64,000 bases of DNA from an uncultured Pelagibacteraceae bacterium (GTDB taxonomy: Bacteria; Pseudomonadota; Alphaproteobacteria; Pelagibacterales; AG-422-B15), in assembly GCA_902617525.1 (NCBI GenBank), contig CACMWW010000001.1:1-64000 (forward strand), given 5' to 3'. Below the pieces are notes generated by a model. That model saw nothing but the letters and a program-made list of their open reading frames with translations, ran no database searches and was not told the origin of the DNA. Below are positions 529-19,377 of the stretch, in pieces (positions within the stretch are counted from its first letter, which is position 1; each line of letters opens with the position of its first letter). A program made the translations under genes and the position numbers.

Positions 529-1938
529 TTATTTTTTTGCCATTTTTGCCAATTGTAATTCTGCTCCTAGCGTTTCATCACCAATCAAAGCTCTTCTTAC
601 TTTTGCGGACATTGTATCCATGAAAATAACAACTCCTAAAATCAATAATGACATATACATAACATTTTCCCAACTGGTACCCGTATTTATTGCTCCAAGT
701 AATTGTAAACCTATGCCGCCTGCGCCCATGGCACCTATAATAACAGCTCCTCTCGTGTTTGATTCTAAGTAGTAAAGAGTTTGGGAAATAAAAATAGGAA
801 GTATTTGAGGTATAATTCCAAATCTGTGTTGAAGAGTTTTATTCGCTCCCGTAGACTCTACACCTTCTTGTTGCTTTTCTTCAGTGTTTTCTATTGCTTC
901 AGACATTAATTTTCCAAGAGTTCCTGTATCTGTAATTGCAATAGCAAATATTCCAGTAAATGGTCCTGGTCCGAAGGCTCTTAAAAAAATTAAGCTCCAA
1001 ATCAAAAAATCGATGCCTCTTAATGTATCAAATAACCGTCTTAATATCGTTCGAACAAATTTAAAAGGCGTTACATTGTAAGCTGCAAAAAATGCCAGAG
1101 GAAAACCCAGAAGAGCTGCTAGTAGGGTGCCCAATAGAGCCATAAAAATTGTCTCTAATAAAGCCCACAATATTTGTCCATGATGCCACATATCATTATT
1201 TAGAAATTCTTGAATTAGAAGCGAAAAATTTGAAATATTGGGGTCAACTCTATCGCCTGAGAATGAAAGTGAAATAGCATTCCAAATTCCATATGGTTCT
1301 AAAGGACTGTCAAAGTCAAACCAGAAATAGTTCCAACCAAGATTGTACCTATGTACTTCAACTTTTTTTGAATAAACTTGAACTCTTTCGTAAAGAGATG
1401 GTCTAACCTCTATTTTATTTTCCGTTACCCTTATCCATTTTGGGAGATTATCTACATTTTCAACGTAAGGCTTACCTTGTGCATCAAGACGAAAAACAAG
1501 TGTTTCTTTGGTGTCTGGCCAGTTTTCTATTGTAACTTTATCATCGTATAGATTTGCAAACCCTCCATTTTTAAAACTTATTTTTGTTTCACCCTCTGGA
1601 CCTATGGAAGTCCATTCAGGATACCTTTCTGGAAGACCGTCACTTTTTTGATAGGGGCCAACATACTGAGACCACCTGCTTCCTTCAAAGGATATAATTA
1701 TATCATCTGGTTCACTCCATTTCATTGTGACATGGTCTTTATGTGCATATGTGTCGAGGGCAAACAATGAAGCTCTTTCAGGACTCCATTTTTTATGAAT
1801 CTGAAATATGTCGAGGCTTAAAATTGCTATGATTAAATACACTATAATCCCGAGCACTAAAAAAGTTGACCACATTTTAGATGAAAATTTAGTAACTACT
1901 ATATCTGAATAATTTTTAATAATTTCAGACCTGTTCAT
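529..1938 (-). CDS. phnE: phosphonate/phosphate-type ABC transporter permease PhnE with long periplasmic insertion
   Basis: C-terminal binding-protein-dependent permease domain with EAIENTEEKQQEGVESTGA loop; ATGA overlap with upstream phnE stop supports start at 1938 rather than 1968. Confidence 0.85.
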   Translation of the reverse strand: MNRSEIIKNYSDIVVTKFSSKMWSTFLVLGIIVYLIIAILSLDIFQIHKKWSPERASLFALDTYAHKDHVTMKWSEPDDIIISFEGSRWSQYVGPYQKSDGLPERYPEWTSIGPEGETKISFKNGGFANLYDDKVTIENWPDTKETLVFRLDAQGKPYVENVDNLPKWIRVTENKIEVRPSLYERVQVYSKKVEVHRYNLGWNYFWFDFDSPLEPYGIWNAISLSFSGDRVDPNISNFSLLIQEFLNNDMWHHGQILWALLETIFMALLGTLLAALLGFPLAFFAAYNVTPFKFVRTILRRLFDTLRGIDFLIWSLIFLRAFGPGPFTGIFAIAITDTGTLGKLMSEAIENTEEKQQEGVESTGANKTLQHRFGIIPQILPIFISQTLYYLESNTRGAVIIGAMGAGGIGLQLLGAINTGTSWENVMYMSLLILGVVIFMDTMSAKVRRALIGDETLGAELQLAKMAKK

Positions 1939-2801
1939 GATTTCAATCCTATTAATGATTTTCGCCAATAACTTGATAAGTAATCCAATGCAATGATCGT
2001 AGACACAAGTAAAAACATTATTGCAATAGTGTCAGCTTCATATTTCCACTGTATATTAGTGTAAAGTTGCTCACCGATACCTCCAGCGCCAACAAATCCC
2101 AAAATAGTTGAAGCCCTTATATTAATCTCAAATCTTAAAATTGTGTAAGTTAGAAATAGAGGGAGTGCCTGAGTTACCACACCAAATCTTATTCTGGTAA
2201 ACCATGAAGCTCCACAGGACTCAAGACCTTCAATTGGATTTTTGTCGACATTCTCAATAGCTTCTGAAAACAATTTGCCAAGAGCTCCTGCGGTATGAAT
2301 TATGATGGCAATTACAGCAGGCAGTGCTGACTTTCCCAGTAGATACAACAAAACAAGCGCAATAACTAATTCTGGAAACGATCTGCATATATCCATGATG
2401 CGTCGAAATATTAATACAGTAGTTTTACTTTTGATTAGATTACGACTTGAAAAAATACTTAAAAAAAAGGCTAGCAACGTACCCATTGCTGTTGAAAATA
2501 GAGCCATATTAATAGTGCTTATTAAATCTGGAAGGTATTCAAGTAACAATAAATTCCATCTATAGCCGTATTCCCATGACCCAACAAATAGATCAACTGG
2601 GTAATCGAAAAATTTAGGTAATCCAACCCAGATGCTAGTCGCATTTCCTGTTTCTGCTACAATTAAACCCGAATAAATAACTGCTATCAATGCCGCAATT
2701 GAGAGAAAAGAATAAATTGATCTTGTTCTTGTAAGAGATTTTAAATTATTTTCAATTTTAATTAAATTTTCTGGCAATGATGATTGCACTGTTTCCTCCA
2801 A
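1935..2801 (-). CDS. phnE: phosphonate ABC transporter permease PhnE
   Basis: TM permease with EAIENVDKNPIEGLESCGAS loop and GAGGIGEQL; clustered with phnC/phnD. Confidence 0.9.
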   Translation of the reverse strand: MEETVQSSLPENLIKIENNLKSLTRTRSIYSFLSIAALIAVIYSGLIVAETGNATSIWVGLPKFFDYPVDLFVGSWEYGYRWNLLLLEYLPDLISTINMALFSTAMGTLLAFFLSIFSSRNLIKSKTTVLIFRRIMDICRSFPELVIALVLLYLLGKSALPAVIAIIIHTAGALGKLFSEAIENVDKNPIEGLESCGASWFTRIRFGVVTQALPLFLTYTILRFEINIRASTILGFVGAGGIGEQLYTNIQWKYEADTIAIMFLLVSTIIALDYLSSYWRKSLIGLKS

Positions 2802-2813
2802 ATAAACTGCTAA

Positions 2814-2843
2814 TTAAGAGGATGGGGCATGCCATCCTCTTAA
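2814..2843 (-). promoter_or_regulatory. intercistronic hairpin between phnD and phnE
   Basis: Perfect inverted repeat TTAAGAGGATGG-ggcatg-CCATCCTCTTAA (12-bp stem, 6-nt loop) in the phnD-phnE gap. Confidence 0.8.
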
Positions 2844-2865
2844 GTTAGCAAGCAACTACCGAAAT

Positions 2866-3825
2866 TTATTCGGCTTTTTTAGCTTCAATTTTAGCTTTAC
2901 GAGCAGCTACAATAGTTTCATAGAAACTATGGTCGACTGGCACCCAAGCTTTAACAACTCCATTTGCAACATTCTCGCTGCATTGTGGGTCATTTTCATG
3001 GATCCACTGCTTCATGCCTACCATGACCTGATGCGCTCTCACAGGCATATTAGTTGGCATTACAATCGGTCCATTTGGTATCAAAGCAGATGACCAAATC
3101 TGTTTGATGTCATCCATATTTAATAGTCCTTTATCAACCATTTTTCTCAGATTTCCAGAAGAGTAACCTTCGCTCCATTCACCAACTCCAGATACCCATG
3201 TCACACCTGCATCGATATCACCATTAAGAACTGCCAAAACGTTATTTTCATGACCACCTGAAAATTGTGTAGAGCCAAAGTATGAGTCTGGATCCATTCC
3301 TGCAGCTTTTAATTCGATTGATGGTATTAGATAACCAGATGTTGAATTAGGATCAGCCCATCCAAAAGATTTACCTTTTAAATCATCAAGTGAATTGATA
3401 CCCGAGTCTGATCTTGTAACCATGACTGAATAATAGCCCATATCTCCTGTTGGCTGCATTCTGGTTAAAATTGGTACAGTAGCGGTAGGATCTTCTAGAT
3501 ATATACCCGCATATCCTGATGAGCCAAACCAAGCATAGTCTAAGCTGCCACCAAGCATTGACTCCATTGTTCCTGCATAATCTTTAAAAGTATAAATTTT
3601 AGCTGGTACTCCATATGCAACTTCCGCATATTCCTTTAGACATGCATTATTCTTAATAATGTCTTGAGCTGATTCATCGCCTAAAAATCCAAGTCTCATT
3701 TCAGGTTGATATTTACTCAAGTCCATTGTTGGCCCTTTATAGCCAGATACATCCCATGCGTATGCATTTGCAGACACAAAAAGGAATGAACAAGCAATAA
3801 TAGACCTTACTAAATTTTTAATCAT
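2866..3825 (-). CDS. phnD: phosphonate ABC transporter substrate-binding protein PhnD
   Basis: Signal peptide, PhnD-type periplasmic binding protein sequence (LRLGFLGDESAQD..., WVSGVGEW), cluster context. Confidence 0.9.
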   Translation of the reverse strand: MIKNLVRSIIACSFLFVSANAYAWDVSGYKGPTMDLSKYQPEMRLGFLGDESAQDIIKNNACLKEYAEVAYGVPAKIYTFKDYAGTMESMLGGSLDYAWFGSSGYAGIYLEDPTATVPILTRMQPTGDMGYYSVMVTRSDSGINSLDDLKGKSFGWADPNSTSGYLIPSIELKAAGMDPDSYFGSTQFSGGHENNVLAVLNGDIDAGVTWVSGVGEWSEGYSSGNLRKMVDKGLLNMDDIKQIWSSALIPNGPIVMPTNMPVRAHQVMVGMKQWIHENDPQCSENVANGVVKAWVPVDHSFYETIVAARKAKIEAKKAE

Positions 3826-3877
3826 TTTTAGTATATCTCCTTGTTAGTTGTTAAGTTTTTTTTTGAAAAGGCTAACA

Positions 3878-4681
3878 TTATCCTGCCTCTGCAAACTGTT
3901 CGTCACCAAGTGAAGTTGAAGTAACTGTTGGTTCAAATGCTTCTTCAGCTTCAGCGCCATAAATTTCTCTAGCAACATCATCTTTTAAACTTGAAGGTAC
4001 ATCATCAAAAACAATTTCCCCAAGTCTCATGCCAATGACTCTGTCACAATAATTTTTAGCGGTATCAAGAGTATGAAGATTTGCAAGAACAGTAATCTGC
4101 TTTTCTCTATGAATATTTCTAAGTGATTCCATTACAAGTCGGGCATTAAGAGGGTCTAGCGATGCAATAGGCTCGTCGGCTAAAATCATTTTTGGTTGCT
4201 GCATCATAGCTCTACAAATTGCAACCCTTTGTTGCTGTCCACCAGATAAAGTCTCTGCTCTTTGCAGCGCGGTTTCAGCCATTCCCAATTTATCCAGAGC
4301 CATCAATGCATCAACGCGTTCATCTTTAGTGAAAAGTTTTAAGCTTGATCGTAAAGTACCTTGAATATTTGATCTTCCAAGAATTACATTTGTTAAAACA
4401 TCTAAACGGGGCACAAGATTGAATTGCTGAAATATCATGGCACAATCTTTTTGCCATGCTCGTTTGTCTTTCTTTGTTAATGAAAGTATATTTCTGCCTT
4501 CAATAAAAATAGATCCACTAGTTGCGTCGGTTAGACGATTCATTATTCTCAGTAATGTTGACTTTCCAGCACCAGATCTGCCAATGATACCAATCATTTC
4601 AGGTTTATTAATTTCAAATGTGACATCGTTTACTGCACGGTTGTCACCAAAATACTTATTTAATTTCTCTACTTTGATCAT
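3878..4681 (-). CDS. phnC: phosphonate ABC transporter ATP-binding protein PhnC
   Basis: Walker [10 protein letters not shown], signature LSGGQQQR, Walker [20 protein letters not shown] is the likely start (ORF open to 4705). Confidence 0.92.
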
Positions 4682-4720
4682 TAGTATGAATGAAAAGTAA
4701 TACAAAAAAATTAAATCAAA

Positions 4721-4775
4721 GTTGCATTTTTATGACAGATATTTTGCAATTTATTACACTAATGTTACAGCTCAA
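4721..4775 (-). promoter_or_regulatory. Pho-box-like array of phased half-sites between phnC and phnZ-like gene
   Basis: Minus strand CTGTAAC-ATTA-GTGTAAT-AAA-TTGCAAA-ATAT-CTGTCAT-AAAA-ATGCAAC: five 7-mers spaced 11,10,11,11 nt; resembles PhoB direct repeats CTGTCAT-N4-CTGTCAT. Confidence 0.45.
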
Positions 4776-4815
4776 ATTATTGACATTAAAAAAAATATAA
4801 TTAATCATTTAAATC

Positions 4816-5415
4816 ATGCAATTAGATAAAATCCAATCTCTAGAAAATAAATTAAATTCAGCTTCAATTATTGAGCGTACCAATGTTTTATGTGAAATTA
4901 TTGATCAAAGAGGTTCATGCAGTTTTTATGACGAAGAGATTACTCAATTACAACATGCTCTTCAGTGCGCAACCTTAGCTAAAGAAAATAATGAAAGTGA
5001 TAAATTTATTACTGCTTCATTATTTCACGATTTAGGGCATATGTTGACTGGCGAAGATGTAAATAGCCATGATTTTTTAAACAATGACAAGTATCATGAA
5101 AACGTTGCTGCATCTTTTTTATCCAAGTATTTCCCTGAAGAAGTTACTTACCCAATTAAAATGCACGTTATTGCAAAGAGATATCTATGTTCCGTTCAAT
5201 CAGATTATTATGACGGTCTTTCAGATGGCTCCAAAAGAAGTTTTAAACTTCAAGGCGGATATTTAAACAAAGATGCTATTCGAAAACTGGAAAGTCATAA
5301 ATATTTTGAAGATGCAGTAAGACTTCGAAAGTATGATGACAATGCAAAAATTAGGGGAAAGAAAACTGAAGCTATTTCATTCTTTCATCCTTTTATTCAA
5401 AAGTCCTATATTTGA
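4816..5415 (+). CDS. PhnZ-like HD-domain mixed-valence diiron oxygenase (phosphonate degradation-associated HDIG family)
   Basis: HD motif ASLFHDLGH, lid-like Y38-x2-E41, YHENVAASFLSKYFPEEVTYPIKMHVIAKRYLC; next to phn genes. Confidence 0.8.
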   Translation: MQLDKIQSLENKLNSASIIERTNVLCEIIDQRGSCSFYDEEITQLQHALQCATLAKENNESDKFITASLFHDLGHMLTGEDVNSHDFLNNDKYHENVAASFLSKYFPEEVTYPIKMHVIAKRYLCSVQSDYYDGLSDGSKRSFKLQGGYLNKDAIRKLESHKYFEDAVRLRKYDDNAKIRGKKTEAISFFHPFIQKSYI

Positions 5416-5927
5416 ACTTTACTAAAATAAAGCTTTCGAAAATTGTTAAAGCAAAAAAAAATCTTGGTAATTTGGTTATATCCAGTTGTCCAGGTATCAG
5501 TAATTCTAGATTTGATAAATTTACTTATAAAAAAGATTTAACCATTATCATCGACTTAAATATATCACTCGTTGTTTCATTGATAGAACTTAATGAAATT
5601 AGAAATTTTGAAATTAATCAGTTCCATAAAGATCTAGAGGAGAAGAATGTTAGGGCCTACAGCATGCCCATAAAAAACTATGGTATTCCAGCTCAGATTA
5701 AAAAAAATGAATATAGTCAAATTATCAGAGATTGTGTTACTCAGTTAGAACTCAATAAAAATGTTTACCTGCATTGTTATGCTGGATTAGGTAGATCTGG
5801 AATGTTTGCTTCACTTATTTTAAAGGCACTAGGACTAGATTCAAAGCAATGCATAAATCATGTAAGGAATTGCCGGCCAGGTACAATTGAAACAGAGGAA
5901 CAAGAAAAATTTGTAATCAACTTTTAA
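5412..5927 (+). CDS. dual-specificity/tyrosine phosphatase-like protein
   Basis: P-loop HCYAGLGRSG (CX5R); TTG start overlaps the phnZ-like TGA stop (TTGA). Confidence 0.8.
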   Translation: MNFTKIKLSKIVKAKKNLGNLVISSCPGISNSRFDKFTYKKDLTIIIDLNISLVVSLIELNEIRNFEINQFHKDLEEKNVRAYSMPIKNYGIPAQIKKNEYSQIIRDCVTQLELNKNVYLHCYAGLGRSGMFASLILKALGLDSKQCINHVRNCRPGTIETEEQEKFVINF

Positions 5928-6760
5928 GGCCCTTCACCACGTGAAAGCCTTTTGTTAATATCATCAATAACGGTCTCGATATCTGCAATAGTTTCTATTA
6001 CGTAATGCGCACCTGCTTTATAAAGCAGATCTTTTGCATATCCTTGTTTCATATCAATTTCTTCTTTACTCAGTTCATCAGCTTCTTCTAAGGAATTTAT
6101 ATTCATATAATTCGAATATCGCGTTACACCAACACCCCAACAACCAGCATTAATTGCTTCTCCAATTCCTGAAACAGTATCATCAACTTTTATAACTGAT
6201 TGAATGGATTCTATATTCATTATATCTAAATTTTTATATAACATGTGGGGAAGGGGCCGAACGCCATTTTTAACATCATCACCTGCAACTGACGCATCAG
6301 GGACATATCCCTGTTTTGCTGATTCTTCCTCTAAAATATTAACCATTGACCGCACAAAACCAGTTGTGCAACCAACTTTTATACCGCTATTTTGAACCCG
6401 TTTAATTACTTCTGCTGTTCCGGGTAATAATTTTGAGTATTGTTTTAAGCATTTAAGCTGCAGTGGAACAAAATCTGCGTACATATTTTCAACATCAGAC
6501 ATTTGTGGGTCTTTACCATGTACTATGTTCCAGCGCTTTCTTATTTCAGCGTTCTCTGTGAGTGCTTTTATATGTAAATCTTTTCGTAAACCCATGGGTT
6601 CTCTTGCCTCTTCCATGGAGATTACAACCTTTTGTTTCTTAAAAACCTCAACAAACACTATAGTTGGAGCAATCACGTATGCGTCAGCAGTAGTTCCACT
6701 CCAGTCTAATACCAAACCTTTTATCTCTCCTTTATATCTATTTTCTGACAAATATTTCAA
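5924..6760 (-). CDS. phnX: phosphonoacetaldehyde hydrolase (phosphonatase)
   Basis: HAD motif LVLDWSGTTAD, cap-domain EAREPMGLRKDLHIKAL with Schiff-base Lys context. Confidence 0.9.
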   Translation of the reverse strand: MKYLSENRYKGEIKGLVLDWSGTTADAYVIAPTIVFVEVFKKQKVVISMEEAREPMGLRKDLHIKALTENAEIRKRWNIVHGKDPQMSDVENMYADFVPLQLKCLKQYSKLLPGTAEVIKRVQNSGIKVGCTTGFVRSMVNILEEESAKQGYVPDASVAGDDVKNGVRPLPHMLYKNLDIMNIESIQSVIKVDDTVSGIGEAINAGCWGVGVTRYSNYMNINSLEEADELSKEEIDMKQGYAKDLLYKAGAHYVIETIADIETVIDDINKRLSRGEGP

Positions 6761-8483: not shown

Positions 8484-8844
8484 ACTTTTAATCAGAAATA
8501 TATGTCAACCACCGGATAGCAATCCTTACGGCACCGCTCACGGAGCTTGGATTGTAAAGCAAATGGCCCATGGAGGCATTTATATGACTCAGCTTGTTTC
8601 AAAAGGAAATGCCGTATTAGTTGAGTCTAAAGTTAAATATAAAAATCCGATGCATGTTGGTAAATTCATCAATGTTTACGGATCGATTGTATCTGTAAAG
8701 CAGTCCAAAATGATATTCAAAATTACTGCGATGCGTTCTGAAATGAACCAAAAGGAAGTTGAAGTGGCGGTTGGGGAGTTTTCCTACGTTGCTATCAATG
8801 ACAAAAATAAAACAAGAAAATTTAAACCAAATTTAAAGATCTAA
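8476..8844 (+). CDS. hotdog-fold acyl-CoA thioesterase (YciA-like)
   Basis: NPYGTAHGAWIVKQMAHGG, hotdog core. Confidence 0.75.
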   Translation: MSKLLIRNICQPPDSNPYGTAHGAWIVKQMAHGGIYMTQLVSKGNAVLVESKVKYKNPMHVGKFINVYGSIVSVKQSKMIFKITAMRSEMNQKEVEVAVGEFSYVAINDKNKTRKFKPNLKI

Positions 8845-8870
8845 AAAAGCCCCCAAATTAATGGGGGCTT
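8842..8870 (-). terminator. intrinsic terminator of the small ORF at 8878-8976
   Basis: Minus strand AAGCCCCC-attaattt-GGGGGCTT followed by TTTTTT. Confidence 0.85.
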
Positions 8871-8877
8871 AATGTAG

Positions 8878-8976
8878 TTAAAACGGAGCTCCACTCAAAA
8901 AGTGGAGGTTTCCACATCTACAATCACATGGAATTTCACTACTCGAGCAAAGCTCCTCTATACTACCTATAGACAT
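8878..8976 (-). CDS. unannotated 32-aa Cys-rich peptide MSIGSIEELCSSSEIPCDCRCGNLHFLSGAPF
   Basis: ATG at 8976 preceded by AAAGGAGGTGGTCT (extended SD), stop TAA at 8878-8880, terminator 7 nt downstream, candidate promoter TTGAAA-18-TATATA at 9047-9018. Confidence 0.65.
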   Translation of the reverse strand: MSIGSIEELCSSSEIPCDCRCGNLHFLSGAPF

Positions 8977-9061
8977 AGACCACCTCCTTTCATTAAATAT
9001 GGTTAAAACTGTATTAGTATATATAATTTACTGGATTCTTATTTCAATCAAGGAGTTTATT

Positions 9062-9499
9062 ATGCAACCCGAATTAATTTTTGAGCCAGTCATCAATATG
9101 CTATGGCTTTCTTTGGCTGTTTTTGCCTTTGGGACAGTCCTCAGACTTAAGGCTATTGTCATCGATAAGAAGAATACAGAAGATGATTTTAAAATACCCA
9201 CATTTGAAAACGGCAGTGAATTAATTCAAAATAGTCAGCGAAATTTGACAAATTTATTCGAATTTCCAATCTTCTTTTACGCGGTTTGCATTATGATTTA
9301 TGTAACGGGAACAGTCGATGAGTATTTTATGTTATTGGCAACATGGTTCTTTTGGTTAAGAGTTTTACACTCAATCGTTCACATATTTTACAATAAAATC
9401 ATACCTGGTGTTGCCTTGCCAGTTAGAACGTTATTTTGGTTACCGTCTACGATTATCCTGGCGTGGATGGCTTATCGAGCCTGCTCTTTAATGATCTGA
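9062..9499 (+). CDS. MAPEG family membrane protein (copy 1)
   Basis: N-x-x-E-FP and WFFWLRVLHSIVHI; SD AAGGAG before ATG 9062; ORF open to 8999. Confidence 0.75.
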   Translation: MQPELIFEPVINMLWLSLAVFAFGTVLRLKAIVIDKKNTEDDFKIPTFENGSELIQNSQRNLTNLFEFPIFFYAVCIMIYVTGTVDEYFMLLATWFFWLRVLHSIVHIFYNKIIPGVALPVRTLFWLPSTIILAWMAYRACSLMI

Positions 9500-9921
9500 T
9501 GTTAACTAATATTTTAGTTCCAGCACTTGGGCTTATTTTATTAACTTTTGTTATTGGATTAATTCATACAATCGCATCAGTCAATTTAATGGGTAAAGGC
9601 AAGGACTGGGAGGAAAGTGGAATTCCTGTTGAGCCTTATAAAGATGCTCCTCTACATTTGAAAATTATAAAAAATAATATTTCAAATATATTTGAGTTTT
9701 CAGTTATTTTTTATTTTCTAATAGGGATCATCGTTTTTATTGAAATTGAAAGTAATTTTTTGCTAATTTGCGCATGGTTATATTTATTATTTAGAGTGAT
9801 CCATTCCATTGTACATATCTGTTTCAATAATACTTCAGCAAGAGGTGCCATCTGGATTTTTTCTCAAACTGCTTTGTTGTTATTGTTTCTTGGAACTGCG
9901 TATTATGTTTTAAGTAGCTGA
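9499..9921 (+). CDS. MAPEG family membrane protein (copy 2)
   Basis: NIFEFSVIFYFL and LFRVIHSIVHI; ATG overlaps upstream TGA by 1 nt (TGATG). Confidence 0.7.
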   Translation: MLTNILVPALGLILLTFVIGLIHTIASVNLMGKGKDWEESGIPVEPYKDAPLHLKIIKNNISNIFEFSVIFYFLIGIIVFIEIESNFLLICAWLYLLFRVIHSIVHICFNNTSARGAIWIFSQTALLLLFLGTAYYVLSS

Positions 9922-10359: not shown

Positions 10360-11070
10360 ATGACAAATTTTGCCTATATTCCTGTATATGCGCTTAGATT
10401 CATGATTGCATATTTTATTGTAACGAATGCCGCGGCTATGATTTTATTTCCTGGAGGAACTTTATTTAATCCAGATTTAAATTCTTACTCTTTTAGTGGA
10501 AATTTTTTTAGTGACTTGGGAATCACATTTACTCGTGATGGCACTCAGAACTTTCTCTCAAGCTTTTTATTTAACAGCTCTTTGTTGATAATGGGACTAT
10601 GCGCTGTCTCTCACGTATTTGTACCAAATTTATTTAGAGAGAATAAGAAAACTTATGTGATTTCAGTCATTGCATCAATTTTATTAGTTATTTCTGGAAT
10701 ATCTTTCATTGGCGTTGGTTTAACACCAGCTGATATTTATTTTGAAGAGCATGTTTGGTTTGTTATTTTAGCTTTTAACGCTCAAACTGTTGGTATTTTT
10801 TTTATGACAATCGCATTTTTACTGAGCAAAATAAGTAATAGATATACTATTGTTGCTTTTATCTATTTTATAAATGTCGCTCTTTATACAATCTTTGAAA
10901 CAAGTGAGCCTCCACCTGACTTCAATCCATTTGAATTGGAAAATGTTGAAGAGTTCATAGATTACAACCGATTCACGATATCAGTTGTTTGGCAAAAAAT
11001 AATTACAGTTATTTCTATGATCAGTATTCTGATCTTTACATTTGGTTACAAGAAACTTTTAAATGACTAG
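10360..11070 (+). CDS. DUF998-like multi-TM membrane protein, tandem paralog 1
   Basis: Shared motifs FPGG, YSFxxNFxS(D/E)LG, G(V)xLTPxDxYxxxH with the two following ORFs. Confidence 0.7.
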   Translation: MTNFAYIPVYALRFMIAYFIVTNAAAMILFPGGTLFNPDLNSYSFSGNFFSDLGITFTRDGTQNFLSSFLFNSSLLIMGLCAVSHVFVPNLFRENKKTYVISVIASILLVISGISFIGVGLTPADIYFEEHVWFVILAFNAQTVGIFFMTIAFLLSKISNRYTIVAFIYFINVALYTIFETSEPPPDFNPFELENVEEFIDYNRFTISVVWQKIITVISMISILIFTFGYKKLLND

Positions 11071-11779
11071 ATTCTGGTGTGTACATATCCCAAGAATTGC
11101 ATCTGCTTACTATATTTTTGCGGTAATCATTGCTATGCTTCTATACCCTGGCGGTAATCATATAGAACTAGATCAAGTAGGTTATTCATTTCATAAAAAT
11201 TTTCTTAGTGAGCTTGGTTTTCATAAAACAATGTCTGGAGATTTAAATTTTTTTTCATCTTTTTTCTGGAATACTGCAATGTACATGCTCTTATTACAAG
11301 GCATAGCTTTTTTGTTTATTCCGAGTTTATTTAGGGTAAATCGTTACTCGTTTATATTTGCTTGTTTAGGAACATTATTTATGTTTCCGGCTTGTGTTTT
11401 TTTTGTAGGAGTTGCCTTAACACCAGGTGATATTTACTTTGATGCGCATCTATTTACTACAACTATGGCATTTAATTTATACTCTGTAGCAATTCTCTTT
11501 TATGTTCTTGCTTTTTTATTTAGTCCTTTATCAAACTATTATGCGTCAGGAGGTGTGCTACTTTTTATTGCAGTAGGAGTTTATGCCTATTATCTTGGTG
11601 ACTTTCAACCGATTGATGCAATAAATGACCGTGTTCGTTTTTTAGAAACGTACACAATGGATTTCTTGATATTTAATGTAGTGTTACAGAAGGTGATGAT
11701 TATTCTAATGATTACAACAATTATCATGTTTACGTTTGGCCTCGATAAGTTAATAGGAAAAAAAAATGCAAATGACTAA
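11063..11779 (+). CDS. DUF998-like multi-TM membrane protein, tandem paralog 2
   Basis: YPGG, YSFHKNFLSELG, GVALTPGDIYFDAH; overlaps paralog 1. Confidence 0.7.
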   Translation: MTRFWCVHIPRIASAYYIFAVIIAMLLYPGGNHIELDQVGYSFHKNFLSELGFHKTMSGDLNFFSSFFWNTAMYMLLLQGIAFLFIPSLFRVNRYSFIFACLGTLFMFPACVFFVGVALTPGDIYFDAHLFTTTMAFNLYSVAILFYVLAFLFSPLSNYYASGGVLLFIAVGVYAYYLGDFQPIDAINDRVRFLETYTMDFLIFNVVLQKVMIILMITTIIMFTFGLDKLIGKKNAND

Positions 11780-12449
11780 ATTTTGGACAGTCTATATCAT
11801 TCGATTTGTATCAATTTTTTTTGTTGTCTCAGTAATTATTGCTTCATATTTTTTTCCAGGAGGAAACATACATAATCCTGATCAAATTGGTTATTCATTT
11901 AGTCATAATTTTTTAAGTGAACTGGGTGGGTATATTACATTTGCGGGAGATATTAACAGTATTTCATCATTTTTTTTTAACTCCGCACTTTTTTGTTTTT
12001 TATTGGTCGGAATATCAAGTTTTTTCATTCCATCATTATTTACAGAAAATAAAGTTTCGTATTTTTGTGCGTGCATAGCAGCAGTACTTTTTTTCATTGG
12101 AATGGTATTTTTTGCTGGAGTAGCCCTAACGCCGCACGATTTATATAGAGATGCACATGTATTTTTTGCAATAAATGCATTTCGTTGGTTAGTACCAGCA
12201 TCATTATTCTTTGTAATAGCCTTTTTTCTAAGTAATGCGGACAATAAGTATACTGTTGTGAATATTATTTTTCTTATATCAACCGTTATCTATGTAATTT
12301 ATCAAATATACTCTGGTGATCCAAGATTGAATGAAGAACTATTAGTGCAAAATGTATTAATGCAAAAATCTATAGCAATAATCCATATTATCAGTATTTT
12401 TTCTCTTACCTTCTGCTTCAACAGCCAAATAAAGAATAAAAATTTATAA
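11766..12449 (+). CDS. DUF998-like multi-TM membrane protein, tandem paralog 3
   Basis: FPGG, YSFSHNFLSELG, GVALTPHDLYRDAH; overlaps paralog 2. Confidence 0.7.
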   Translation: MQMTKFWTVYIIRFVSIFFVVSVIIASYFFPGGNIHNPDQIGYSFSHNFLSELGGYITFAGDINSISSFFFNSALFCFLLVGISSFFIPSLFTENKVSYFCACIAAVLFFIGMVFFAGVALTPHDLYRDAHVFFAINAFRWLVPASLFFVIAFFLSNADNKYTVVNIIFLISTVIYVIYQIYSGDPRLNEELLVQNVLMQKSIAIIHIISIFSLTFCFNSQIKNKNL

Positions 12450-16750: not shown

Positions 16751-17014
16751 ATGAACGATTTACATACACTTCAAAAAAAGCTTCAGTTCAAATCCTCCCA
16801 TCGGGGGTCAAAGGAAATGGATATTCTCTTGGGATCTTTTGTTGAGAAATACATCAAATTGTTTAATGAAGGTGAGCTTCAAATGTTAGAGGCTATATTA
16901 GAACTTGATGATAATGACATATATCGATATGCGCTAGATAAGGTGACAATTCCAAAAGAAATTGACAATCGCGTCATGCATTTACTCAAAGATTTTACGA
17001 TGCTTAAAAAATGA
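16751..17014 (+). CDS. sdhE: succinate dehydrogenase assembly factor SdhE
   Basis: RGSKEMDILLGSF motif, small size, position. Confidence 0.85.
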   Translation: MNDLHTLQKKLQFKSSHRGSKEMDILLGSFVEKYIKLFNEGELQMLEAILELDDNDIYRYALDKVTIPKEIDNRVMHLLKDFTMLKK

Positions 17015-19377
17015 CGAAACCACGCTTAAAGACTCAAGTTAATGAGAATTTAAATATCAACATTGATGAAAAATTTGATTATGAAAGAACAATTAACTAT
17101 TTATCTGCCAATGGTTATGCACGCGTAAGTTCAATTCGTGAAAATGGTGAATTCTCTGTAAAAGGAGATGTTATTGATATTTTTCCAACAGACTTCAAGA
17201 ATCCAGTTCGTATTAACATATTTGGTGATGAGATCGAAAAATTTGAGGAATTTAATCCTAAAAATCAAAAATCGATACAAAGTCTGTTCAGACTCATAAT
17301 CAAACCCTTTAATGAGTTCTCTTTCAATCAAAGCAAACGAACAATTAAAGCAGATACTTTTTTAACTGATCTCAGTACTTTTGAACAAGATGATCTAATT
17401 GTTCATGTTGATCATGGAATAGGAAAATTTAATGGATTAAAAAATGTTACTGTCCTAGAAAACGATCATGATTGCATTGAAATAACATATTTCAATAATG
17501 ATAAACTTTATGTACCTGTTGAGAATATTGAACTTTTGTCAAAGTACGGTGGGAATAGTGAATTCGCACAAATTGATAAACTTGGAAGTTCAAATTGGCA
17601 ATTTAGAAAAGCTAGCGCAAAAAATAAAATAAATGAAATTGCCGAAGATTTAATAAAAGTTGCGGCAGAAAGATCTCTAAAAGAAGCGACAAAATATACC
17701 GTTCAAGAACCTTATTATTCAAATTTTATAAATGAATTTGAATTTCAGGATACCGAAGATCAAGCAAATGTAACATCAGAATTACTGTTTGATCTAAATA
17801 GTGGACTTCCAATGGACCGTTTGATATGCGGTGATGTTGGCTTTGGTAAGACAGAAGTTGCATTAAGAGGAGCATTCAATGTAGCCATGAGCGGTGCTCA
17901 AGTTGCATTTATTGTTCCGACAACACTACTATGCAGTCAACACTATGAAAATTTTACAAAAAGATTCAAAAACTTTCCATTGAAAGTAGACCAAATCTCA
18001 AGATTAAACTCAACTTCTGAAAACAATAAAATTATTGAAAGAATTAATAGTGGAGAAAGTGATGTAGTTGTTGGGACACATGCACTTCTTAACAGTAAAA
18101 TTAAATTTAAAAAATTAGGTATGCTGATTATTGATGAAGAGCAGCACTTTGGAGTTTCTCAAAAAGAAAAAATTAAGTCATTGCGGTCAAATGTACATGT
18201 GCTTGCTTTAACAGCTACGCCAATACCACGCACGTTACAAATGTCACTTGTAGGTCTCAGGGATTTGTCAATTATTTCTACAGCACCATTAAATAGGCAA
18301 AATATAAATACTGAAGTTATTGATTTTAATGATGAAAAAATAATCTCTGCAATTGAATATGAATTAAGTCGTAATGGCCAGGTGTATTATGTCTGCCCAA
18401 GAATTAACGAATTAAAAGAAGTTGAGGATTTTTTAAAAAGTAAACTTCCAAATGTAAAGTATCAAATTGCCCACGGTCAAATGCCGTCCAAAAACCTTAA
18501 AAATACGATGATTGATTTTTATAATAATGAATTTCAATTATTACTGTGCACCACAATTGTCGAGTCGGGTCTGGATTTGCAGAAAACTAACACAATGATT
18601 ATTCATAATTCTGATAAATTTGGATTATCTCAACTTTATCAGTTAAGAGGACGAATTGGCAGATCTAATATTGAAGCATTTTGTTTTTATACAGTTAAAG
18701 ACATCAATGGAATAACTGAAAATGCTTACAAAAGACTTATGCTTCTTAAAAAATTTAATTCTAGAGGCTCAAGTTTTAATCTTTCGAGTCATGATTTAGA
18801 TATGAGAGGATCAGGAAACATTATAGGCGATGCTCAATCTGGGCATATTAGAGAAGTTGGTCTCGAACTTTACCATAAATTGCTAAAAGATAAGATATTG
18901 GAATTAAAATCAGATACATCGACAGTTGATAATGAGTGGTCTCCACAAATAAATCTTGGTTTAAGCGTCTTAATACCTGAAAAGTATATGCCAAATTTAA
19001 ACACTAGACTGTTTTATTACCGGCAGCTTGCCTACTTAAGTTCGAGTGAGGAATTAAGAAAAATTAAGGAAGAAATGAGTGAGCGATTTGGCGAAGCTCC
19101 AAAAGAGGTTGAACATTTGTATAACATCACTGAGCTTAGAATTATATGTAAACAGTTGAAAATAGAAAAATTTGATATTGGAAATAAAGGTTTAACTATA
19201 AAATTTAAAAATAATCATTTCGAAAAAACAGACCAACTGGTTGAATTTATGTCTCAATATAAGTATGACTTAAAGTTAAGATCAGACCAAACATTGGTGT
19301 ATAATTACCAAAAAACATCAAATAAAGATCGAATATATAAAGCTTTTTCTTTTGCAAAGGAATTGCAGGCATTATAG
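17011..19377 (+). CDS. mfd: Mfd-type transcription-repair coupling factor, N-terminally reduced (788 aa)
   Basis: RID domain DDLIVHVDHGIGKFNGL, motor ICGDVGFGKTEVALR, DEEQHFGV, TATPIPRTL, QLRGRIGRS; ATGA overlap with sdhE. Confidence 0.9.
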   Translation: MTKPRLKTQVNENLNINIDEKFDYERTINYLSANGYARVSSIRENGEFSVKGDVIDIFPTDFKNPVRINIFGDEIEKFEEFNPKNQKSIQSLFRLIIKPFNEFSFNQSKRTIKADTFLTDLSTFEQDDLIVHVDHGIGKFNGLKNVTVLENDHDCIEITYFNNDKLYVPVENIELLSKYGGNSEFAQIDKLGSSNWQFRKASAKNKINEIAEDLIKVAAERSLKEATKYTVQEPYYSNFINEFEFQDTEDQANVTSELLFDLNSGLPMDRLICGDVGFGKTEVALRGAFNVAMSGAQVAFIVPTTLLCSQHYENFTKRFKNFPLKVDQISRLNSTSENNKIIERINSGESDVVVGTHALLNSKIKFKKLGMLIIDEEQHFGVSQKEKIKSLRSNVHVLALTATPIPRTLQMSLVGLRDLSIISTAPLNRQNINTEVIDFNDEKIISAIEYELSRNGQVYYVCPRINELKEVEDFLKSKLPNVKYQIAHGQMPSKNLKNTMIDFYNNEFQLLLCTTIVESGLDLQKTNTMIIHNSDKFGLSQLYQLRGRIGRSNIEAFCFYTVKDINGITENAYKRLMLLKKFNSRGSSFNLSSHDLDMRGSGNIIGDAQSGHIREVGLELYHKLLKDKILELKSDTSTVDNEWSPQINLGLSVLIPEKYMPNLNTRLFYYRQLAYLSSSEELRKIKEEMSERFGEAPKEVEHLYNITELRIICKQLKIEKFDIGNKGLTIKFKNNHFEKTDQLVEFMSQYKYDLKLRSDQTLVYNYQKTSNKDRIYKAFSFAKELQAL

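Follow-up and report, generated by a model that had tools for sequence, protein, structure and literature searches.

A small RNA unit of a SAR11 bacterium with an extended Shine-Dalgarno sequence and a short reading frame whose peptide apparently drifts has probable relatives across the Alphaproteobacteria

A short open reading frame (ORF) lies on the minus strand of a 64,000-nucleotide stretch of DNA from an uncultured Pelagibacteraceae bacterium (the window), and the locus raises the question of whether its peptide, its RNA, or only the act of translating it has been kept by selection. The initial annotation had described an unannotated monocistronic unit encoding a Cys-rich peptide behind an extended Shine-Dalgarno (SD) sequence, with a promoter-like site and its own terminator. 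All of these elements were present, and the unit is real. The leader and start read GAAAGGAGGTGGTCT-ATG (8991–8974, with the ATG at 8976–8974), and the 32-codon ORF (8976–8878), ending with a TAA at 8880–8878, gives the product MSIGSIEELCSSSEIPCDCRCGNLHFLSGAPF. The SD, GAAAGGAGGUGGUC (8991–8978), is a block that recurs class-wide; since the 16S tail of this genome is TGGATCACCTCCTTTCT, it would form 14 contiguous pairs with that tail, one being G-U, in agreement with the complementarity first noted. The SD block followed by a start codon occurred once in the genome, where the 9-mer AAAGGAGGT was unremarkable (13 sites versus 25 for the reversed control). The sequence AAGCCCCCATTAATTTGGGGGCTTTTTT (8870–8843), a GC-rich hairpin with a T-run, was terminator-like on this strand and was the strongest of three such sites in 8800–9100, compared with 0.1 in shuffles. 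The candidate promoter, TTGAAA (9047–9042) and TATATA (9023–9018) separated by 18 nt, held up in part: four related genera carry the surrounding block, TTGATTGAAAT(T/A)AGAATC...ATTATAT, at the corresponding place 5' of the gene, whereas a strict sigma-70 consensus scan gave it no score. A MAPEG ORF listed on the plus strand from 8999 (8999–9499) would overlap this promoter; a start near 9062, with AAGGAG just upstream, is more likely for that gene. The coding region of the small unit folded with z-scores of −6.2 and −6.3 against shuffles, indicating strong RNA structure, which the initial annotation had missed together with the non-conservation of the cysteines and the class-wide relatives described below.

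The locus was found in 28 of the 60 relatives searched, all within the window's own genus, and a covariance model raised the count to 34 genomes of that genus; the relatives lacking it were mostly incomplete assemblies. The unit was much better conserved than the flanking thioesterase gene. Within the genus, Cys21 was replaced by Tyr in about half of the members and Ser12 by Cys in two; the member that had diverged furthest (L028/L069) read MSISSIEELCSSSESYPYDRRYGNLHFLSGAPF, with an in-frame 3-nt insertion and three of the four Cys absent. The covariance model also located the unit in three further genera of the same family (g7, g8, and g9; E from 4e-17 to 5e-8), whose copies had the same kinds of flanking sequence and encoded peptides such as MSISSIMEPTTFAGLPNHLDIGNLHFVSGAPN. 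In g7 and g8 the peptides, of the form MSISSIMEP...GNLHF[MV]SGAPN, were without any Cys, and the frame, start, and stop were kept. In a Pelagibacteraceae-like family (f2), the covariance search gave only one chance-level match (G320, E 0.48). Thus the frame proposed by the initial annotation persisted in relatives, the insertion being in frame, whereas its Cys pattern was lost, an outcome that the same annotation had named as speaking against a Cys peptide.

Near-invariant across the sister genera were the SD block, ATGTCT, GUAGU/ACUAC, and GGAGC/GCUCC. The GUAGU arm (8966–8962), just past the start codon, and the ACUAC arm (8878–8874), which takes in the final base of the stop codon and lies just 5' of the terminator, are predicted to form a helix, P1, and both have class-wide counterparts. 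The GGAGC.../...GCUCC core, retained in four genera, belongs to a long bulged stem-loop within the ORF (8958–8885). In GUAGU/ACUAC, four of the five pairs never varied and the fifth was broken in one sequence. In alignment A3, 84% of the cells paired, versus 37–46% with the partner slid; because the structure guided the fitting of this alignment, which also contains one antisense self-hit of L069, we take the figure as support and not as proof. In L026 and L027 (G023 and G035), the terminator loop CATTAACTTG was found inverted, as CAAGTTAATG, between unchanged stem arms, which appears to be a local inversion at an inverted repeat; the matches L029 and L030 fell on the reverse strand because of this inverted loop.

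The window unit is very probably the SAR11 member of an Alphaproteobacteria-wide set of RNAs. Judged from their sequences, the members are standalone, usually single-copy, and roughly 150–200 nt long, and they share, in order, GAAAGGAGGUGRUCY, a start codon, UCU, a clade-variable P1 arm, a short ORF, the matching P1 arm, and a terminator; the first block complements 14–15 nt of the 16S tail. The window copy is likewise single and standalone, with the start codon, P1, and a complement to its own SD. The exact pattern of the 5' block matched 36 of 290 alphaproteobacterial genomes from 32 genera, once each, with no match for the reversed pattern, and the extended SD plus start gave 66 matches in 64 of the 290 (about once per genome) versus 5 for the reversed pattern; these class-wide shares are lower bounds because the search patterns were exact. 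In named genomes the search yielded at least 119 stretches, which came from Sphingomonadales, Rhodobacterales, Hyphomicrobiales, Rhodospirillales, Caulobacterales, and SAR11. The canonical block was essentially missing outside the class, and in other classes of the phylum a loose pattern matched a few genomes with irregular spacing. Among the matches listed, all the named ones were alphaproteobacterial except one metagenome-assembled genome labelled Woeseiaceae (L159); the contig under this gammaproteobacterial label carries a canonical unit with the P1 GUGAGAU/AUCUCAC and may have been misbinned or transferred. Two extended SD plus ATGTCT sites occurred in one genome (G409:C1:805113 and 2922048), possibly reflecting a second copy. 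A CAAC-type motif, for example TCAACAAC, was seen within about 14 nt 5' of GAAAGG in 136 of 169 distinct units, in most clades, and possibly marks the 5' end of the transcript.

One part of the set is covered by the Rfam family CC2171 (RF01867), a Caulobacter sRNA. The window copy scored 22.0 bits (E 0.005) with this model, not reaching the gathering cut-off of 75 bits, and L066 scored 33.7 bits (E 9e-4), also under threshold. Twelve of the 32 class loci tried reached the threshold, mostly those of the CAUUGUC type, and the model missed the Sphingomonadales, Rhodobacterales, Bradyrhizobium, Acetobacteraceae, and SAR11 types tried. CC2171 aligned with the SAR11 copies, including that of the window, at the 5' block GAAAGGAGGUGAUCC-start-UCU, and the window copy shares its P1 layout of a start-proximal arm and a pre-terminator arm (here GUAGU/ACUAC) followed by the terminator. 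CC2171 itself is standalone, with the 5' block GAAAGGAGGUGAUCC(A)GUGUCU, and its Rfam consensus holds a GUG-initiated ORF with this SD; it is filed as an sRNA, and no ORF is named in its search output. It has been mentioned as a family for which one base pair was improved (PMC11701678), and the sRNA candidate MH_s33 of Mesorhizobium huakuii has it as its Rfam match (PMC5596092); our literature search found no functional study of it. This places an orphan Rfam sRNA within a class-wide and usually single-copy RNA, a SAR11 lineage included. No known RNA family reached its threshold with the window copy; weak matches to SpF51, Phe_leader, and anti-hemB rested largely on the terminator and were rejected, as was a viral origin, the exact stem pattern being missing from viral contigs.

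The P1 arms varied by clade (CAUUGUC/GACAAUG, CAUGGUU/GACCAUG, CAUUGC/GCAAUG, CAUCGU/ACGAUG, and AUGAGAUU/AAUCUCAU, besides the two pairs given above), and between clades the changes in the 5' arm were matched by changes in the pre-terminator arm, a covariation consistent with pairing. When the search was anchored at the terminator, a strong P1 helix was found in 44% of 104 representatives versus 9% in cross-locus and 5% in shuffled controls; terminator detection is imperfect, and the true share may differ from 44%. Anchoring was needed because a loose search over the 155-nt region discriminated poorly (median 15.5 for own arms versus 13.5 for controls). Among 118 divergent representatives, the downstream RNA also paired with the unit's own SD beyond dinucleotide shuffles (mean z −1.51, 64% below −1), and the mean z of the reversed-SD control was −0.04. 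The anti-SD-like segment of the window copy, UAGAUGUGGAAACCUCCA, lies within the ORF (8921–8904, limits approximate), pairs with the SD at −20.3 kcal/mol (z −2.9), and codes for ..RCGNLH; in Rhizobiales the complement is ACCUGGAUCNUNGCCUCC, read as TW(I/V)xAS, in Rhodobacterales it sits 3' of the ORF, and in the SAR11 genera g7 and g8 the signal was weak. Because these complements coincide with coded motifs, the apparent peptide motifs can be explained as RNA elements, a caution that may apply to peptide motifs of small ORFs in general. Along the RNA the SD is followed by one P1 arm, the anti-SD, and the other P1 arm, so that the two helices cross, which predicts either a pseudoknot or a pair of alternative folds. 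The nested and pseudoknotted forms had close estimated energies, the pseudoknot being lower in 56 of the 104 before any penalty and by over 7 kcal/mol in just 3, and in the nested model of the window copy the SD was rarely paired with the anti-SD (P 0.03). We give a switch of the SD between 30S binding and self-masking slightly less than even chances.

The SD, start, and TCT are present in the retrieved units because the retrieval patterns demand them; the start test therefore used a pattern in which the five bases following the SD could be any. Each of its 37 matches carried ATG, GTG, or TTG, correctly placed, where 3/64 codons would be expected by chance and the matches, being related, are not independent. 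This result indicated that initiation is probably under selection. The ORF length was constant within clades, at 18 codons in Sphingomonadales and Rhodobacterales, 14 in Bradyrhizobium, and 32–33 in SAR11. By simple counts on these short, diverged, and structured sequences, pN/pS was 1.24 in Sphingomonadales, 0.88 in Rhodobacterales, 1.13 in Rhizobiales, and 2.63 in the 14-codon Bradyrhizobium type, in each case no lower than in shifted frames, and values near or above 1 suggested that the peptide is mostly unselected there. Only the SAR11 values, 0.65 and 0.71, fell clearly below 1, and in the 33-codon SAR11 set the shifted frames gave similar values. Of the peptide and RNA conservation that the initial annotation had set apart, the nucleotide structure was conserved, and a low pN/pS was confined to SAR11. 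Initiation and ORF length seem to be selected and the amino-acid sequence mostly free; on these counts the predicted peptide of the window copy is weakly constrained and those of other clades are unconstrained. We consider translation without selection on the peptide fairly probable.

A functional small peptide, with the SAR11 ends MSISSIMEP and GNLHFxSGAP as conserved product and the RNA structure secondary, would account for the selected start and the fixed lengths, and the SAR11 ratios and GNLHFxSGAP end leave room for it in that lineage. It is nevertheless improbable in view of the ratios in the other four clades, of the peptides of different orders, which have almost nothing in common past M/V-S, and of the overlap between the anti-SD-like RNA segment and the motifs conserved in SAR11 and in Rhizobiales. 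A non-coding binder of the 16S tail, acting as a 30S decoy or as a sensor of 16S 3'-end maturation with an incidental start codon and ORF, would suit an unconstrained peptide and a complement far longer than a normal SD; we regard this as improbable too, because start codons that are restricted in kind and exactly spaced, together with ORFs of constant length within clades, point to genuine initiation and termination.

We tentatively favor, at somewhat less than even chances, a ribosome-responsive small mRNA or regulatory RNA, in which the SD would alternate between 30S binding and self-masking and so hide or release the anti-SD segment. As the 16S tail would hardly allow a complement longer than this SD, a 30S subunit could bind it and translate the short frame, the start of which would be selected while its peptide drifts largely freely. 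The downstream mimic of the 16S anti-SD would pair with the same SD and, together with P1, create a pseudoknot that masks the SD. A ribosome that binds and passes through would unfold this structure and uncover the anti-SD-like segment, which would then probably act in trans on the SDs of other mRNAs; at a low supply of initiating ribosomes, the RNA would remain closed. An ancient alphaproteobacterial sensor of the supply of initiating 30S subunits, in which translation of a content-free mini-ORF would flip the pseudoknot so that a mimic of the rRNA tail becomes exposed and tunes the translation of other mRNAs, is an unlikely form of this reading, and ribosome sensing with a trans output, taken by itself, is also unlikely. 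An ordinary small mRNA, the structure of which tunes only its own translation or stability and the anti-SD-like segment of which has no trans role, fits a standalone unit and the commonness of SD masking as translational control, but a peptide that drifts class-wide leaves autoregulation nothing obvious to protect, which makes this explanation quite improbable. For the ribosome-responsive RNA, the class-wide, usually single-copy presence of a probably translated, sequence-free ORF with an rRNA-tail mimic points to a housekeeping role connected with translation initiation.

The genes adjoining the window unit are two MAPEG genes and those of a 4HBT thioesterase, a VanZ-like protein, and an SDR protein. 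A Cys-rich metal/redox peptide or RiPP precursor, as first suggested by the four Cys and one His of the window copy, is highly improbable, since the Cys are lost in sister species and genera, a Pfam and NCBIfam search found no match, and no RiPP modification enzyme was present among these neighbors. The interest of the unit lies in its selected start and free peptide, not in a Cys peptide. A cis leader or attenuator was rejected, as the initial annotation had anticipated: a convergent thioesterase gene follows, there is no conserved co-directional downstream gene, and the clades have no neighboring gene in common, which argues against such a role. A dual-function sRNA had stood among the first candidates.

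Among known systems, the alpha-r8 sRNAs (MmgR, and SisA-D of Caulobacter) are described as repressing many mRNAs through a 10-mer anti-SD motif (PMC12559287). Compared by description, the window unit resembles them in anti-SD complementarity, and the available text of that source mentions neither an ORF nor an extended SD. BbsR14 of Bartonella bacilliformis is an sRNA with anti-SD loop motifs, for which a self-paired extended SD or an ORF is not described in the available text (PMC7717549). The dual-function sRNA rnTrpL of Sinorhizobium meliloti has a translated 14-aa ORF, peTrpL (PMC10117765); it differs in sequence and context, being a leaderless trp attenuator adjoining trpE.

Elsewhere in the window, the MAPEG-family genes form a tandem pair (9062–9921, plus strand), and three successive membrane proteins of similar appearance, each about 230 aa long (10360–12449, plus strand), are apparently tandem paralogues. 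By eye, 529–6760 holds a putative phosphonate ABC transporter (two permeases, a binding protein, and an ATPase) and a putative phosphonoacetaldehyde hydrolase-like protein. A 788-aa protein at 17011–19377 (plus strand) looks like a shortened Mfd and is adjoined by a RecG-like gene.
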